64,000 nt of DNA, taken from Gemmatimonadota bacterium (lineage in GTDB: Bacteria > Gemmatimonadota > Gemmatimonadetes > Gemmatimonadales > GWC2-71-9). The position numbers and the translations under genes were made by a program. A model generated the notes under the pieces. That model did no database searches, was not told the origin of the DNA, and was given only the letters and a program-made list of their open reading frames with translations. Below, one piece after another: positions 51,794-58,774 of the stretch (positions are counted from its first letter, which is position 1; the number at the start of each line of letters is the position of its first letter). The stretch lies in NCBI GenBank assembly GCA_003222155.1, contig QHUU01000057.1, positions 1 through 64,000 on the forward strand, written 5' to 3'.

Positions 51794-52783
51794 CTACGTG
51801 GCGGGTGCCAACTCCCCGGCGTCGAGCACGCTCGCCTGCACCGTCCTGCCCTCGATGACCTGATCGTCCCCGATCACCGAATCGTGCACCGTGCTGCGGA
51901 CCACGCGCACGTTCCTGCCGAGGATGCTGTTGGTGATCGTGCTCTCCGTGACGTGACTCCCCGCCTCGAGCGACACGTTCGGCCCCACCGTGGCGTCGTG
52001 GATCTGCACGCCGTCCTCGATGTAGACCGGGGGGACGATGGTGCAGCGCGGACACGGGCCCGTGGGGAGCCGGACCCGGCCGTTGTCGAGCAGGTGCCGG
52101 TTGGTCTCGAGCAGCGTGTCCACTTTGCCGCAGTCGTACCAGCCGCGCACCGGCGCCGTAAGCAGCCGCCGGCCGTGGTCCACCATGTACTGGAACGCGT
52201 CGGTGAGATAGTACTCGCCGCCCTTGCCCGGAGGCTGCGTCAATACGTGGGCGATGCCGTCGAACAACGTCTTCCAGTCCCGCACGTACTGCAGCCCGAT
52301 GTTCGCGAGCCGCGAGACCGGCGTGCTCGGCTTCTCGACGATGCGCTGCATGTAGCCCTGCGCGTCGGTCACGATCACCCCGAACCGCTGGTAGTCCTCG
52401 ACCTCTTTCGCCCAGATGATCCCGTCCGCGTCCACCCGCTCGACGAGCGACAGGTCGGCCTCGAACAGAGTGTCCACGAAGATGATGAGGACCGGGGAGT
52501 CCACGAACGGCCGCGCCAGGTTGATGGCGCCGGCGGTGCCGTCGAGCGTCTTTTGCTCGACGAAGGTCGCCTTGACGTCGTAGTGCTCGACCACGTACCG
52601 CTCGACGACATTTTTCAGATGTCCCGTGATGACGATGATCTCGTCGACGTCGAGGGGCTTCACCGCGTCCATCACGTAGTCCATCACCGGTCGGCCCGCG
52701 ACCCGCACCAGCGGCTTGGGGACCCGCTTGGTGAGCGGCAACAGCCGTGTGCCTTTGCCGGCGAGCGGCACGATCACTTTCAC
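51794..52783 (-). CDS. Sugar-1-phosphate nucleotidyltransferase with left-handed beta-helix tail
   Basis: The product has 329 residues from GTG 52781-52783. The N-terminal Rossmann-like domain has PLAGKGTRLLPLTKRVPKPL (nucleotide and phosphate binding), GTAGAINLA and FVDTLFEADL (metal Asp). The C-terminal part has hexapeptide turns (VYIEDGVQIHDATVGPNVSL) of a left-handed beta-helix. It resembles glucose-1-phosphate thymidylyl- or mannose-1-phosphate guanylyltransferases; the sugar is not determined. It overlaps the cupin gene (GTGA), suggesting a common pathway for a surface glycan. Confidence 0.86.
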   Translation of the reverse strand: MKVIVPLAGKGTRLLPLTKRVPKPLVRVAGRPVMDYVMDAVKPLDVDEIIVITGHLKNVVERYVVEHYDVKATFVEQKTLDGTAGAINLARPFVDSPVLIIFVDTLFEADLSLVERVDADGIIWAKEVEDYQRFGVIVTDAQGYMQRIVEKPSTPVSRLANIGLQYVRDWKTLFDGIAHVLTQPPGKGGEYYLTDAFQYMVDHGRRLLTAPVRGWYDCGKVDTLLETNRHLLDNGRVRLPTGPCPRCTIVPPVYIEDGVQIHDATVGPNVSLEAGSHVTESTITNSILGRNVRVVRSTVHDSVIGDDQVIEGRTVQASVLDAGELAPAT

Positions 52784-53133
52784 GGCACCCTCCCGTAGCG
52801 GTCTTTCAGCCGCACCACGTCGTCGATCTCGGGTGTGGACGCCTCGAGCAGATCGGTGGCCGTGACGGCCTCGAATTGGTGGATCAGCTTGGGCTCGATG
52901 TGGAACGCCTGCCCCTGCGCCATGCGCCGCTCGGAGAGCTGCTCGTCCCGCTGCAGGCGCAGGATGATCTCGCCAGCGAGCACGTAGATCGACTCGTCCT
53001 TCTTGTTGTGGTACTGCAACGACAGCACGTGCCCGGGCTCGATGTGCAGGATCTTCCCGACGTACCGGTCGGTGCGGGCCCAGATCAGCTCGTGGCCCCA
53101 GGGCTTGGGGACGCGGTAGGGGAGGTCGGTCAC
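52780..53133 (-). CDS. Cupin, mannose-6-phosphate isomerase type II-like
   Basis: The product has 117 residues from GTG 53131-53133. KPWGHELIWART is the conserved start of the C-terminal cupin of mannose-6-phosphate isomerases and GDP-mannose pyrophosphorylases, followed by LQYHNKKDESIYVLAGEI (metal-binding His/Glu) and EPKLIHQFEAV. The preceding nucleotidyltransferase makes sense as its partner, suggesting GDP-mannose-type sugar supply. A longer start would add arginine-rich sequence from the heptamer element upstream, so it was not used. Confidence 0.82.
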   Translation of the reverse strand: MTDLPYRVPKPWGHELIWARTDRYVGKILHIEPGHVLSLQYHNKKDESIYVLAGEIILRLQRDEQLSERRMAQGQAFHIEPKLIHQFEAVTATDLLEASTPEIDDVVRLKDRYGRVP

Positions 53134-53144
53134 GAAACACCCCG

Positions 53145-53263
53145 AACGCGGAACGCGGACGTGTGAACGCGGAACGCGGAACGCGGAACGCGGAGCGGGC
53201 AACCGGGCGTCCTGGCGCGCGACCTCGCTTTTCTGTTCCGCGTTCCGACTTCCGACTTCCGCG
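53145..53263. repeat. Large AACGCGG heptamer hairpin element
   Basis: Seven heptamers in register (53145-53193; AACGCGG with one ACGTGTG variant) face TTCCGCG, TTCCGAC, TTCCGAC and TTCCGCG (53236-53263). The region lies between the polyferredoxin stop and the cupin start. It is a longer relative of the element at 33072-33147, with the same units and the same position directly after a stop codon. Confidence 0.85.
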
Positions 53264-53266
53264 TTC

Positions 53267-53836
53267 TCATGGGACCAGGCTCAGCCTGAGCGACGATGGC
53301 GACGTGACGCACGCCGTCACACACACCCCGCACCCCACGCATCCCTCCGGCCGGATCACGGGCCGGCCCCCGGCATCGAGTGCCAGCGCCTTCTCGCCCA
53401 CCGGACAGGCCCGCGCGCACACGCCGCACGCCACCCCCTGGAACGTGATGCAGCGCTCGGGATCGAGCTCGAGCACGCCCATGTGCACCTCGTCCCAGCC
53501 GCCGGGCGGCGGCACCAGGGCGCCGGTCTCGCACGCGCGGGCGCAGGGCATTTCCGCGCACACCACGCAGGCCTGGATCCCGGGATCGATGATCGGCGTG
53601 CCGGCGGCAAGGCCCGCCGCCGGCGGCGCCTTGATGATCGCCTGCACCGGGCACACCGCGATACAGTCGCCGCAGCGCGTGCACGAGGCCAGGAAGCTGA
53701 TCTCGTCCGCCGCGCCGGGGGGCCGGAAGTAGCGCCGCGGCGCCACGCGGCGCTCGGTGCGCACGGTCACCTCGTGCAGCAGCCGGCCGAACGCGTCGCG
53801 GAAGAACCCGCGGCGATCGTGCGCGCGCGTGTCCAT
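53267..53836 (-). CDS. Four-cluster ferredoxin (MauM/NapG-like)
   Basis: The product has 189 residues from ATG 53834-53836, overlapping the M1 peptidase stop by one base. It holds four Cys-rich clusters: SCTRCGDCIAVCP, CVVCAEMPCARACETGAL, CITFQGVACGVCARACP and CVGCGVCVTACV, each typical of a 4Fe-4S site. This spacing matches the MauM/NapG family of electron-transfer ferredoxins. The RRGFFRDAF segment at the N-terminus resembles a weak export or docking region. No partner oxidoreductase gene is adjacent, so its electron donor and acceptor are unknown. Confidence 0.88.
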   Translation of the reverse strand: MDTRAHDRRGFFRDAFGRLLHEVTVRTERRVAPRRYFRPPGAADEISFLASCTRCGDCIAVCPVQAIIKAPPAAGLAAGTPIIDPGIQACVVCAEMPCARACETGALVPPPGGWDEVHMGVLELDPERCITFQGVACGVCARACPVGEKALALDAGGRPVIRPEGCVGCGVCVTACVTSPSSLRLSLVP

Positions 53837-56787
53837 CAGAAGCTCGGGGACAGGCTCACCTGCCACCGGAACGCGAACCGCGCCCTTCCCGAGACGCTGT
53901 CGGCGGCGAACTGGAAGGGAGCCACCACGAGCGGCACCTCGAACCGCAGCGTCCAGCCGAGGTCGCGCAACTGATGGCGGCTCACGAGGCCGAGCCCTCC
54001 TTCGTAGAGAAACGTGGACGCGCGACCCCGCTTGGTCGCCGGCACGGCGAGCGTGTCCACGAGACCGGCGTCGGCGAAGCCCATGAGGGATGCCTCCCGC
54101 AGGAATCCATGGTCGCGTCGCCCCAGGGAGCGCGTCAGCTCGCCGTTCACGCTCACCGCCCATCGCCCGCCGAGGTCGCGGCGGAACGCCCGCAGATTGG
54201 CGTTCCCCGGCGCATGGTAGTAGAAGTCCGGCCGCAGGAACAGGGCGCCCTGACTCCGCAGGAATGGGTCGCCGAAGGTCTCGTACGGATCCGCCCCCGC
54301 GACGGGAATGCGCCGTTGCCGCACCGCCGGCGAGCCCCCGGTGTAGGCGCCGGCGAACAGGCGCAGCCCCAGCGTCGTCCGGGCCCAGAACGGCGTCCGC
54401 ACGCTTGCCTCCCCGGTGAATCGACCGAAACCCTCGAAGTCGTAGCGGGTGGCCGAGACGATTCCCCGCGACGGGTTCGAGTACACCACGCCCCCCCGGG
54501 CGACGAAGCGGGCGTGCAACGCGGTCGCGCCATGCCGCGTGGTGGTCGCCCACCACGGCCCCACCTCGACGCTGCCGGCGTCGTCCCACAGCCCCCGGTC
54601 GAGGTAGCCGAGCTCGGTGGTCGCCATCCACAGGGCGTCGAACCCGACGTGGGGGTCGGCGCCGAAGTCCAGATGCTGGCGCAGCGAGCGATCCACGGAG
54701 AGCTTCGCCCCGGCGCGTCCCTCCGCCGACCACGCCGCGACGCTCGTCTCGGTGCGGGGCGCCGCGTGCCCGATAGAATTGCCCCAGCGGCCGTAGAAGC
54801 CGAAGCGGTTGGTGGCGCCGGGGCCGGTGGCGAGGGCGGCCAGCAGCAGGCCGCGGTCGTAGCTGCCGAGATAGTTGGAACGCTCGCGCAGGCCGACCGT
54901 GAAGCCGCCGAAGCTGTTCGACCAGGCGACGGGCAGCCAGGCGCGCACCAACCGGTCCCGCCGCGCGGTCTCCCGCGTGGGGTCGTCCAGCCGAAAAGTC
55001 CACGCACCGCGCCCCACGAGTGCCCGTGGCTCGCGGTTGTTCAGCAGGTCGAAATCGTGCGTGCGTCCCCGGGGGTCGAGCACGAGGCGCCCGGGCCGCG
55101 CGGCACTCACGAACGCGACCCGCTCCTCCGCGGGCTCGCCCGTCGCCCGGGCGTAGATCGTGTCGGCGTCGCCGATCTCCACCGGCAGCCGGCCCTCGCC
55201 CCGTCGCTCGATCGTGACCACGGTGCGCCACCGGCCGTCGGCGAGATGGTGCCGCTCGACGCGCTTCAGGCGGTAGTCGAACAACGGCGTGGCGTGCAGC
55301 CACTCGCCGAACAGCCATTTCAGGTTCCGCCCCGACACGTCCTCGGCGACCTCACGCAGCGCGTCCTCGTCCACGTGCTTCAGCCTCCAGCGGGCAAAGT
55401 AGGCCCGCAGGATGCGCCGCATCGTCTCGTCCCCCACCACGTAGCGCAGCTCCTCGTAGAACAGCTGCGCCTTCGAATAGACCATGGCGTTGTAGGTGGT
55501 GAAGTCGCGGTACTGCTCGCCCGGAAACGACACCGGCTCGCTCCAGCGCTCCAGGTCGAGCCACAGGACCTCGGGCTCGAGCCCGTCATACGCCGGCGGC
55601 CCGCCGTGCGTCTCGAAGAACCAGCCGGTCTGGAAGCTCGTGAACCCCTCGTCGAGCCAGCCCTCGCGCCACTCGTTGTTCGCGAGCTGCCCCATGGTGT
55701 ACTGGTGGCCGGCTTCGTGCACGATCAGGCCGAGCCCGGCGCTGCCGTCCATGATCATCATGGGGAACTCGGTGCCGCCGCCCTCGATGCGGTGCACGTT
55801 GGTGAGCTGCGGCCACTGGTAGGTGCCGTACAGGGAGTCGAGCCACGCGAGGGCGGTGACCGTATTGCGGAGCGCGACGCCGTTCCCCCACGTGGCGCGG
55901 TCCTCGGGCAGATACAGCACGCGCACCACTGCGTCGCCGGAGCGGCCCTGCTCGTAGCGGTACTGCGGGTTCAGGGAGAACGCGAAGTGATGCACGCGCT
56001 CGGCCCGGAAGCGGACACACTTCCGTCCCGCGCCGACCCGCATCCCCGCGCACCCGGACGCGGCGAGCGGGGAGCGGTACCAGGCACGCTGATAATCCAC
56101 CTGCAGGCCGGGATCCGCCTTCGCCTTCTCCCAGCCGGGGTCGCCCTCCACCGGAACGCCGGTGGCGCCGATGACCTGATCGTCGGGGAGATCGAGCGTC
56201 ACATCGTACGTCGCGAACTCGCCGTAGAACTCTCCCGCGGGATAGAGCGGATGGTCCTCCCATCCGTATTTGTCGTACACCACGACTTTCGGATACCACT
56301 GCGCGAAGTCGAAGCGCCGGCCCTGACGCCCCTGGCGCCGCGGCAGCGTCGAGAGACGCGCCTGCCATTCGATTTCGACCACGAGCGAATCGCCGGGCAC
56401 GAGCGGCCGGGCGAGCGTCCAGTGTGCGATGGTCGAGTCGGGCGCGTACGGGTAGTCGGGTCGCAGCGCCCGGCCCAGGAGCGTGGCGGCCGTGATGCGC
56501 TCGAACGCGTAGTCCGGATCCCCGAGATGCTGAAACCGCTCGCGCCCCTCGGCCGAGTCGGCCGCGGCCCAGCGCGACCCCGGCCGGAACGCGTTCAGGT
56601 ACTGATGTACGTAGAAGTCGCGCAGCGTGGTCGAGGAGCGGTTGACGTAACCGATCCGCTCCCGCCCCGTGAGCACGCCGGTCGGCTCGTCGAGGGAGGC
56701 GGTGATGCGGTAGCTGACTTGCTGCTGCCAGTAGCCCGTCGTGTCGCGGGCCAGAAGAAGAAGAAACAGGGACGCGAGCGATGGCAT
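53836..56787 (-). CDS. M1-family metallopeptidase fused to a C-terminal outer-membrane-like beta-barrel
   Basis: The product has 983 residues from ATG 56785-56787, with a signal peptide (LASLFLLLLARD). The gluzincin site HEAGH (His357, Glu358, His361) is followed 18 residues later by Glu380 in WLDEGFTS, the M1 pattern. The upstream IEGGGTEFPMM is the aminopeptidase-type motif. Residues about 590-983 form a run of amphipathic strands ending in WQVSLSPSF, with a terminal Phe like BAM substrates. Such a fusion would place the peptidase on the cell surface. A TAGCTT box lies 10 nt upstream of the ATG. Confidence 0.85.
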   Translation of the reverse strand: MPSLASLFLLLLARDTTGYWQQQVSYRITASLDEPTGVLTGRERIGYVNRSSTTLRDFYVHQYLNAFRPGSRWAAADSAEGRERFQHLGDPDYAFERITAATLLGRALRPDYPYAPDSTIAHWTLARPLVPGDSLVVEIEWQARLSTLPRRQGRQGRRFDFAQWYPKVVVYDKYGWEDHPLYPAGEFYGEFATYDVTLDLPDDQVIGATGVPVEGDPGWEKAKADPGLQVDYQRAWYRSPLAASGCAGMRVGAGRKCVRFRAERVHHFAFSLNPQYRYEQGRSGDAVVRVLYLPEDRATWGNGVALRNTVTALAWLDSLYGTYQWPQLTNVHRIEGGGTEFPMMIMDGSAGLGLIVHEAGHQYTMGQLANNEWREGWLDEGFTSFQTGWFFETHGGPPAYDGLEPEVLWLDLERWSEPVSFPGEQYRDFTTYNAMVYSKAQLFYEELRYVVGDETMRRILRAYFARWRLKHVDEDALREVAEDVSGRNLKWLFGEWLHATPLFDYRLKRVERHHLADGRWRTVVTIERRGEGRLPVEIGDADTIYARATGEPAEERVAFVSAARPGRLVLDPRGRTHDFDLLNNREPRALVGRGAWTFRLDDPTRETARRDRLVRAWLPVAWSNSFGGFTVGLRERSNYLGSYDRGLLLAALATGPGATNRFGFYGRWGNSIGHAAPRTETSVAAWSAEGRAGAKLSVDRSLRQHLDFGADPHVGFDALWMATTELGYLDRGLWDDAGSVEVGPWWATTTRHGATALHARFVARGGVVYSNPSRGIVSATRYDFEGFGRFTGEASVRTPFWARTTLGLRLFAGAYTGGSPAVRQRRIPVAGADPYETFGDPFLRSQGALFLRPDFYYHAPGNANLRAFRRDLGGRWAVSVNGELTRSLGRRDHGFLREASLMGFADAGLVDTLAVPATKRGRASTFLYEGGLGLVSRHQLRDLGWTLRFEVPLVVAPFQFAADSVSGRARFAFRWQVSLSPSF

Positions 56788-56930
56788 AGGGATCGGGAAG
56801 CTACACAGCAAGGAGCGCGCCGGGGAGGTCGCGCGCGATTGCGATGTCGAGCGCGCGATTCGGGCGCCGGTCGGGCGAGCGACGCCGGGCATCTTGGCCC
56901 GCCGTCCCAAACCTCGACCAAGGAGTTGCC

Positions 56931-58166
56931 ATGCTGTCCCATACCGCACGCCTGGCCGCACCCGCGGCACTCGCCCTGCTCGTGGGCGGGCTCGCCTGTT
57001 CCGATCACACGCCGGGCACGGGACCCGAGCCCGGCAACCGCGCCGGATCGCCTGGTGCCGCGCCCCCCGCTGCCCCCGCTCCGCCGGAGCAGCTGGCGCG
57101 CGGACTCGCGCTCGCGCTGGGCGACCCCGCATTCCGCGCTCGCGTACGCGCCGAGCTCGCTCGCTCGCCGTACCGCGAGCACAAGTTGCCATTCCAGCGG
57201 TTCCTCGCGGCCGAGGGCGGGGTCGCCCTCGCGGCGCTGGCGCGCGGCACCGGGCGGGCCGCGAGCGCGCTCGCGCGCGAGGCCGACGGCACCATGCCGC
57301 TCGAGATGTACCTGCCCGTGCCGGCGCACGCCCGAGCCTGGACCGGGGGTCCCGACGTGCTCGTCGCCACGGCGATCGGCGACCACGACGTGCCGGTGGC
57401 GTTCGACGTGCACGGCAACCGCCGGCTGCTCGACCCCGAGCGTCCGCCCGCGACCCCCGTCATCGCGGTGGTCCCCGTCGAGACCGATTTTTCGACCAAG
57501 CCCTCTCCGCTGATCGCGTGCCTCGAGTATTGCGGCGGGGATGGGGGCGGGGGCGGGGGCGGCTCCCCTCCTCCGCCATCGCCGGGCCTGTACATGACCA
57601 AGGCCCATTTCGTGGATGATTTTGAAGGTTGGTTGAAAGGCAGCCCCGAATTTGAGGTCCACATCCTCGGCCAGAAGGGGCAGACGGACTCGCTCACCGA
57701 CTACCAGTGTGCCGGCGAGAAGCAGCTCGCGCCCTACAACTTCGACCAGAACGACCTCGACTGGAGCGGCAGCGTGATGTTGTTCAGCCAGGCTCAGCTC
57801 GACGCCTACAACGCCGCTCATCCGGGCCAGAACGTCCGCGTGTTCGTGGTGGAGGACGACGACACGGCGTGCGAGATCAAGGCGAACCGCGACAACGTCG
57901 GGAATCTGTTCAAGGCGGTGGACGACGCGTACAAGGCCGTCACCGCCGGCAACCAGAAGAGCAATACCCTCGTCAAGCTGTTCACGCGGGCGAACGCGTT
58001 CCAGAAGCTGTTGGCGGCGGTCGCGTCGTTTTTCAATACCAACGACGAACTGGTCGGGAACGCGGTCGAGGACGGCGTGGTGGGAACGACGTATCCCGGA
58101 TACAACTGGATCGTGAAGGGTGACAACACCGTGACCAACGGCTGGATCAAACTCGAGATGAAGTGA
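56931..58166 (+). CDS. Putative lipoprotein with Gly/Pro linker
   Basis: The product has 411 residues from ATG 56931 (AAGGAG upstream). The lipobox is LVGGLAC with Cys23. An N-terminal domain (about 45-190) contains FQRFLAAEGGVALAALARG and MYLPVPAHARAWTGGPDVL, then a GGDGGGGGGG-SPPPP linker, then a second domain (FVDDFEGWLKGSPEFEVHIL ... WIVKGDNTVTNGWIKLEM). The linker DNA contains four G-runs of four to five in a row, a G-quadruplex-type sequence. I do not recognise either domain with certainty. Likely outer-membrane or surface attached. Confidence 0.68.
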   Translation: MLSHTARLAAPAALALLVGGLACSDHTPGTGPEPGNRAGSPGAAPPAAPAPPEQLARGLALALGDPAFRARVRAELARSPYREHKLPFQRFLAAEGGVALAALARGTGRAASALAREADGTMPLEMYLPVPAHARAWTGGPDVLVATAIGDHDVPVAFDVHGNRRLLDPERPPATPVIAVVPVETDFSTKPSPLIACLEYCGGDGGGGGGGSPPPPSPGLYMTKAHFVDDFEGWLKGSPEFEVHILGQKGQTDSLTDYQCAGEKQLAPYNFDQNDLDWSGSVMLFSQAQLDAYNAAHPGQNVRVFVVEDDDTACEIKANRDNVGNLFKAVDDAYKAVTAGNQKSNTLVKLFTRANAFQKLLAAVASFFNTNDELVGNAVEDGVVGTTYPGYNWIVKGDNTVTNGWIKLEMK

Positions 58167-58186
58167 CCGCCAACGCGGGAGGAACC

Positions 58187-58774
58187 ATGCGCATGCTCGC
58201 CGCACCTTGTGTCGCAGTCGGTCTCGCCGTAGCTCCAGGACCGGTATCGGGCCAATGGGGGATCGCGGCGGAGATCGGGGTCGCGCGCTTCGGGGGCTCC
58301 TCCCGCGACACCTCGGGCATCACGGTCGGACCGTACCGCCCCACGACGTTCGAGCTGCGCGTGGACCGTGGCTTCGGGCCCGCGCGCGTGGCGGTCGCCG
58401 TGATGTACGCGAAGACGGGAATCGCCGGCGAGCAGGCGGGCATGGCGCTCGTGCAGTACGACCTCGCGTCGTTCTGGGAGATCGCGCCGCAGCTGTCGTT
58501 CCGCCTGGCGCGCTTCGGGGCCGGCGTCGACGTGCGGGTCGAGGCGGGGCCCGCCGTCGAACGGTGGGACGTGGACGGCGCCCGCCGCACCCGCGTGGCT
58601 GCCCGCACGGCGGCCGCTCTGGAATGGCCGCTCGCCCAGGCGTTCACCGGCTCGCTGCGCGTCAGCGGCATCCTGAGCGGGTCCGTCTTCGACGCGGGCG
58701 AAACGCCGGCGGGCGTCGAGCGGCGTGCGACGCGACGCGTCGGCGTCGCCGTCGGCCTCAGGTATCGGCTGTAG
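58187..58774 (+). CDS. Small outer-membrane beta-barrel protein
   Basis: The product has 195 residues from ATG 58187, preceded by GGGAGGAACC. A signal peptide ends at GPVSGQ. Alternating amphipathic strands (TFELRVDRGFGPARVAVAVM, GAGVDVRVEAGPAVERW) and a C-terminal GVAVGLRYRL indicate a small barrel. It lies 20 nt after the lipoprotein gene on the same strand, so the two are probably co-transcribed. It converges with atpH (18 nt apart). Function unknown. Confidence 0.65.
   Translation: MRMLAAPCVAVGLAVAPGPVSGQWGIAAEIGVARFGGSSRDTSGITVGPYRPTTFELRVDRGFGPARVAVAVMYAKTGIAGEQAGMALVQYDLASFWEIAPQLSFRLARFGAGVDVRVEAGPAVERWDVDGARRTRVAARTAAALEWPLAQAFTGSLRVSGILSGSVFDAGETPAGVERRATRRVGVAVGLRYRL

Follow-up and report, generated by a model that had tools for sequence, protein, structure and literature searches.

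The locus described here raises the question of what kind of protein is formed when a peptidase of the M1 family runs on into a long C-terminal half that resembles a membrane barrel, and on which side of the membrane its active site would lie. The gene was found in a stretch of 64,000 nucleotides (hereafter the window), namely positions 1 to 64,000 of contig QHUU01000057.1 in the assembly GCA_003222155.1 of a Gemmatimonadota bacterium, the genome of which comprises 3.45 Mb in 130 contigs. On the minus strand, an uninterrupted reading frame comprising 983 codons and the stop spans 53836-56787, exactly the coordinates given by a first-pass annotation made from the sequence alone, and its full length and start region are shared with its homologues, among which L043 and L036 are close, at 93% and 91% identity. 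Conservation counts given as x/23 refer to an alignment of 23 full-length sequences, that is, the window protein and 22 homologues. We consider it likely, with a probability of about two in three, that the gene encodes an outer-membrane protein whose Omp85 barrel bears an M1 zinc aminopeptidase instead of POTRA domains and holds it in the periplasm, and we judge this M1-Omp85 fusion to be a new domain architecture uniting two known superfamilies. A peptidase anchored by its own barrel had already been proposed in the first-pass annotation; this study adds the Omp85 character of the predicted barrel, the wide spread of the fusion, and a probable periplasmic orientation of the peptidase.

The peptidase part occupies residues 16-586 (55030-56742, minus strand) and comprises an N-terminal beta domain, the catalytic domain and a beta-sandwich. 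The HEAGH-x18-E site noticed at first pass was recovered, with HEAGH occupying residues 357-361 and the distal Glu following after a spacer of 18 residues, at position 380 (55648-55719, minus strand) and invariant in 23/23 homologues. Peptidase_M1 (PF01433) is the sole Pfam domain in the fusion protein and was matched over residues 354-496 at 4.2e-14 with 53.1 bits (cut-off 27.7), while neither PF00149, a patatin domain nor a POTRA domain was detected by Pfam; without a POTRA domain, the peptidase takes the position that is usual for POTRA domains. G337, E340, H357, E358, H361, E380 and Y437 are each identical in 23/23 sequences, the first two lying in GGTEF (337-341) at the place of GxMEN, the M and N positions of which differ. 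We take E340 to be at the position of the GxMEN exopeptidase motif, and Y437 at that of the M1 catalytic Tyr. Because the catalytic positions are invariant, the catalytic half looks intact. The closest solved structure by sequence is the cold-active aminopeptidase 3cia (1.2e-5), and the predicted model of the whole protein matches 8sw0 (Z 23.7, 470 residues aligned, root-mean-square deviation (rmsd) 3.3), pointing to an M1 fold. The protein shares with the soluble M1 aminopeptidases PepN, LTA4H and PSA the peptidase fold, HExxH-x18-E, the Glu at the GxMEN position and the Tyr, but differs from them in that its beta-sandwich is followed by a predicted membrane barrel, a position taken by a helical domain in many M1 enzymes.

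With regard to the C-terminal half, the amphipathic strands ending in Phe that had been described at first pass were borne out, as the last 385 or so residues are predicted by AlphaFold2 (23 sequences) to form 16 beta strands, both in the whole-protein model, where they span residues 615 to 980, and when the C-terminal stretch (residues 594-983; 53839-55008, minus strand) was folded alone. The final residue is Phe, and among the 23 homologues this position holds 17 F, 3 W, 2 L and 1 I. The whole-protein model reached a mean predicted local distance difference test score (pLDDT) of 74.3 and a predicted template modelling score (pTM) of 0.73, with ten-residue pLDDT means mostly of 73-95 over residues 661-960, apart from lower values at 771-780 and within the long loop; for the barrel alone the figures were 79.4 and 0.78. 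The single long loop, with 58 residues (818-875; 54163-54336, minus strand), joins strands 11 and 12 and, by loop numbering, presumably corresponds to L6 of BamA. Foldseek searches with the barrel alone returned 34 PDB chains at an expect value (E) of 0.001 or below, of which 32 are the Omp85 proteins SAM, TAM, BAM or CdiB, the other two (ranks 29 and 31) being the copper transporter OprC; the template modelling scores were modest, at 0.32 to 0.54 of the query among the best 50 matches. With VIA-align, all of the 50 best matches of the barrel alone are Omp85 entries (BAM, SAM, TAM, FhaC, CdiB, TOC), headed by BamA of D. radiodurans (8xnb_A; Z 20.2, 291 aligned, rmsd 4.0) and followed by Sam50, TamA, FhaC, CdiB and TOC entries down to Z 15.9. 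The same 8xnb_A matches residues 599-979 of the whole model (Z 20.6) in a structural list that otherwise consists of M1 enzymes. The barrel anchor thus gains support from a predicted 16-stranded barrel matching solved outer-membrane Omp85 barrels, and a soluble C-terminal domain, which the first-pass annotation had named as the contrary outcome, did not appear in the prediction.

Omp85 proteins are reported to carry (V/I)RG(Y/F) at the tip of L6 and (F/G)xDxG on strand 13, the Arg and the Asp of which form a salt bridge, the lid lock, according to the part of PMC4490367 that deals with these motifs. The long loop of the fusion protein carries LR(G/A)F, in the window LRAF at residues 865-868, with L in 22/23, R866 in 23/23, G, A or S in 16, 6 and 1, and F, Y or L in 20, 2 and 1 sequences, respectively. 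The L in place of V/I is a variation on the L6 motif, and LRGY is reported for the BamA of F. johnsoniae in a passage of PMC12611786. Strand 13 of the model carries FxDxG (F 21/23, D906 22/23, G 17/23), which reads FADAG at residues 904-908 (54064-54078, minus strand) and follows the definition given in the motif section of PMC4490367. The homologues were chosen without use of the Omp85 motifs, and the motifs are independent support for the Omp85 assignment, separate from the fold matches. Like BamA, TamA, Sam50 and FhaC, the protein displays the barrel fold, the long loop between strands 11 and 12, and the LRGF-like and FxDxG motifs, but unlike them it has an enzyme instead of POTRA domains and no PF01103 match. 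By domain content it is not BamA, TamA or TpsB, and its place in the Omp85 superfamily is given solely by the barrel fold and the motifs. Altogether, computation yields an intact M1 active site and both Omp85 signature motifs in the protein, together with a predicted M1 fold and a predicted 16-stranded barrel of Omp85 topology.

Several observations weigh against this reading. PF01103 was matched in Pfam neither by the fusion protein nor by any of the 23 barrel sequences, the barrel has no direct Pfam or PDB sequence match, whether as a single protein or as a profile, and comparisons of the barrel profile with those of BamA, PD40-Omp85 and no-N-term Omp85 were not significant (E 0.06, 0.16 and 0.33). 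Model confidence is moderate, with low pLDDT at the linker and first strand (48-63 over residues 581-640) and a poorly modelled last strand (ten-residue means of 38-64 from 961), and the model does not decide whether the barrel closes or how the peptidase and barrel halves are placed to each other. The signal peptide claimed at first pass stands only in part, as the N-terminus is hydrophobic but short, has no Lys or Arg in its first eight residues, and is missing as a hydrophobic stretch in 5/23 homologues (L046-L050).

When the barrel profile was run against 121 genomes of the phylum, 27 gave a match, which was strong in 23 (7.0e-32 or better), and each strong match lay within or next to a frame likewise matched by the peptidase; the other four genomes gave weak matches only (1.2e-6 to 7.9e-4). 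One weakly matched protein, from genome G004 (E 4.2e-4 per genome), is itself a member of PF01103 at 2.3e-9. Among the weakly matched proteins scanned (L097, L098, L099 and L103), L099 and L103 exceeded the PF01103 cut-off, and L097 and L098 gave bactofilin matches only, below the cut-off. A weak match in G013 (L100), a 225-residue frame without sign of a barrel, was set aside as probably due to chance. The barrel profile matched a bactofilin-Omp85 set at E 6.1e-6, a figure to be read with the fact that all four members of that set came from the barrel-profile search itself, the unselected figures being those of the 121-genome search. As a side observation, the scanned proteins L097, L098, L099 and L103 combine a bactofilin-like N-terminal part, sub-threshold in L097, L098 and L103, with an Omp85-type barrel, an arrangement left unnamed in the relevant part of the survey of Omp85 subfamilies (PMC4104836). 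No relative was found in the viral contigs searched.

The N-terminus of the window protein (MPSLASLFLLLLARD; residues 1-15, 56743-56787, minus strand), with a best ten-residue Kyte-Doolittle mean of 2.84, is probably an atypical Sec signal sequence. In L046-L050, just 8-10 residues separate the Met from a conserved WQQ or FQQ, alternative in-frame starts yield no N-terminal hydrophobic stretch, and in L046 and L049, where the frame ends 26 and 24 codons upstream, none lies in between. These homologues speak for a cytoplasmic protein where the signal is absent, the C-terminal half being soluble beta structure instead of a membrane barrel. We regard such an account as highly improbable, since the 50 best VIA-align matches are Omp85 barrels throughout, the two Omp85 motifs are conserved, close relatives retain the hydrophobic stretch, and Bacteroidota relatives start with signal peptides that look ordinary by eye. 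The same kind of signal peptide was seen, by eye, in the barrel-less orthologues described below. It was also seen that L045, the sister of L046-L050, retains its signal sequence. Lipoprotein anchoring was rejected as a general feature, because a lipobox-like LVAC was noticed by eye in L041 only among the 23 N-termini, and an N-terminus extended to the upstream ATG at 57192 was discarded because homologues with a stop just upstream (e.g., L058) start in the same region. A TGTAGCTTC-like element ends some 8-12 bases 5' of the ATG in several homologues (56788-56810 in the window), a placement that would suit leaderless transcripts.

Several lines of comparison bear on the orientation of the peptidase. 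In the model, the mean length of the loops that are extracellular by Omp85 topology is 15.8 residues, or 9.7 if the long loop is left out, and that of the loops of the opposite side 5.6, an asymmetry by which the N-terminus would come to lie in the periplasm. Because the N-terminal domains of Omp85 proteins are periplasmic, and the enzyme domain of PlpD, once thought to be secreted, was found only in the periplasm (PMC11116518, in the part on its localization), the peptidase by analogy probably faces the periplasm and not the surface. The first-pass annotation was upheld as to the barrel anchor, but the surface orientation implied by its proposal of surface shaving is opposed by Omp85 topology and by PlpD. 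Export of the peptidase to the cell surface through the barrel, as in the older model of type Vd autotransporters, would let it digest environmental peptides and suit scavenging, and fusions of enzymes with Omp85 barrels were at first believed to be secreted, as a passage of PMC4104836 relates. We find it unlikely, however, in view of the periplasmic patatin domain of PlpD, the retention of the lid-lock motifs that close the pore at rest, and the need for a folded domain of some 570 residues to unfold and pass. Under the preferred reading of a periplasmic enzyme on a barrel anchor, the hydrophobic N-terminal stretch would route the protein through Sec, the ordinary BAM machine would insert the barrel into the outer membrane, and the L6 lid lock would keep it closed at rest. 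The peptidase would hang in the periplasm below the barrel and may remove N-terminal residues from peptides near the outer membrane, the barrel being first of all an anchor, as reported for the patatin domain of PlpD.

This orientation would also place the peptidase on the assembly side of the membrane, and an assembly role of Omp85 barrels is documented in part of PMC4104836, so that an outer-membrane assembly or quality-control factor, trimming or degrading misfolded outer-membrane proteins, had to be weighed. A POTRA search of the genome gave 8 matches, none of them in this gene; they fall in two frames, of 858 and 759 residues, each on a different contig from the window, and these POTRA-bearing Omp85 proteins cover the canonical assembly function. 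Together with the patchy occurrence of the fusion (strong barrel matches in 23 of the 121 genomes), they make such a factor very unlikely. M1 enzymes are, moreover, exopeptidases and poor on folded proteins, which also counts against it.

The search for the same fusion in other genomes, suggested at first pass, disclosed relatives at 38 loci in genome contigs, with full-length fusions in the Gemmatimonadota families f1, f2, f3 and f5; the fusion is conserved across four Gemmatimonadota families at a conserved locus. Three orthologues without a barrel (L034, L064 and L065) show 46-51% identity, have open frames of 616-654 residues, and have no barrel gene adjoining within the locus stretch. An extra barrel-only gene, 53-57% identical to the barrel half, lies near the fusion gene in three loci (L037:788-2155, L038:376-1761 and L051:654-2069); in L037, frames resembling an acyl-CoA synthetase and a dehydrogenase, named by eye, stand between the two. 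In a tree of the M1 part built from 83 of 120 matches, near-copies left out, the fusion status needs at least five changes, a result that does not decide for or against a single origin. Two rows labelled short in that tree are artefacts, L054 being split over two frames and L062 cut at a contig end.

After the fusion gene, most relatives have genes for a ferredoxin, a cupin and a nucleotidyltransferase. In the window, these are a 4Fe-4S ferredoxin-type gene outside the fusion protein (53267-53836), the ATG of which overlaps the fusion stop (TGATG), a mannose-6-phosphate-isomerase-like cupin gene (52780-53202) and a nucleotidyltransferase gene (51794-52873), all on the minus strand and without obvious functional link to the fusion gene. 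Out of 32 Gemmatimonadota loci (L036-L067), 28 were counted, as L052 and L062 end at the gene and L064 and L065 are barrel-less; ferredoxin is present in 24/28 (not in L059, L061, L063 and L066) and nucleotidyltransferase in 27/28 (not in L063). None of the three neighbours occurs beside the barrel-less L064 and L065. These neighbours bear on whether the barrel is a working gate, through which outside peptides would enter and be trimmed at once by the peptidase below. The peptidase does sit at the position from which, in other Omp85 proteins, the POTRA domains contact substrates, and polypeptides are known to pass Omp85 barrels, as stated in part of PMC4490367. Nevertheless, the downstream genes are not those of peptide transport, no substrate, energy source or partner was seen, and the lid-lock residues are kept, which renders a working gate quite unlikely. 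On the other side of the fusion gene, a divergent lipoprotein-like gene (56844-58166, plus strand) and a 203-residue frame that looks beta-rich (58163-58774, plus strand) have no Pfam match and are conserved in near relatives.

The M1-barrel fusion is probably also present in Bacteroidota, a weaker case in which the profile match is only suggestive. Matches were found in 107 of 148 Bacteroidota genomes searched, and in 13 of the 30 loci examined the M1 part is followed by 280 residues or more, several being cut at the locus end. In L068, L071 and L073 the M1 half is followed by some 390-425 residues resembling the barrel, and in eight aligned members, judged by eye, the FxDxG aspartate is kept in 8/8 and the whole motif in 6/8. 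A Bacteroidota barrel profile of 11 sequences was compared in both directions with the Gemmatimonadota barrel profile and matched it at E 0.0056 and 0.00088; the match is of borderline strength and runs collinearly through the last strands. Controls with one profile reversed gave E 0.047 to 0.8, and with both reversed the values were 0.0039 and 0.0006, which is what a true match should give when mirrored. The Bacteroidota set gave E 0.16 to 0.49 against the bactofilin, BamA, PD40 and no-N-term Omp85 profiles, and a comparison with eight whole Bacteroidota proteins gave E 0.02. Pfam detected no Omp85 domain in the eight Bacteroidota members, with M1 in 7/8, and in the six genomes outside the phylum against which the Gemmatimonadota barrel profile was run, no match was better than E 0.038. 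L073, from Chitinophagaceae, keeps the barrel half and has lost the HExxH site, which makes it a probable pseudo-peptidase. We tentatively entertain, as possible and no more than that, an old Omp85 subfamily, shared by Gemmatimonadota and Bacteroidota, whose POTRA domains were replaced by a functional M1 enzyme to form an import-and-trim or quality-control unit of the outer membrane; one polypeptide would then both handle peptides at the barrel and cut them.

With reference to known systems, the nearest counterpart is PlpD among the patatin-like Omp85 proteins (formerly type Vd), described in part of PMC11116518, as in both a catalytic domain precedes a 16-stranded Omp85 barrel and is likely a periplasmic enzyme anchored by it. 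Unlike PlpD, the fusion protein carries an M1 zinc peptidase and not a patatin phospholipase, and the POTRA domain of PlpD was not detected in it. Heinz and Lithgow (2014) distinguished ten bacterial Omp85 subfamilies, and the part of their survey that names the non-canonical ones (PMC4104836) lists patatin, WD40, no-N-term and 'Metallo' with PF00149, and no M1 peptidase. The 'Metallo' subfamily resembles the present protein in that its Omp85 barrel bears, at the N-terminal side, a metal-enzyme domain other than POTRA, but the fusion protein has no PF00149, and M1 is of a different fold and chemistry. It was also noticed that PF00149 is called a metalloprotease in that part of the survey, its Pfam name being Metallophos. 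A 2026 review of BAM counts at least 12 Omp85 members, and the portion of its text consulted does not mention 'aminopeptidase' (PMC13067283). No M1-Omp85 fusion is described in the open-access literature searched, a scope outside which most subscription papers and bioRxiv lie, and M1 peptidases would gain a membrane anchoring of a kind not found in that literature. In the usual view, Omp85 barrels are assembly or export machines fed by POTRA domains. A peptidase standing in for the POTRA domains, in a single phylum and probably in a second, would indicate, together with PlpD, that periplasmic enzymes also use Omp85 barrels as platforms.

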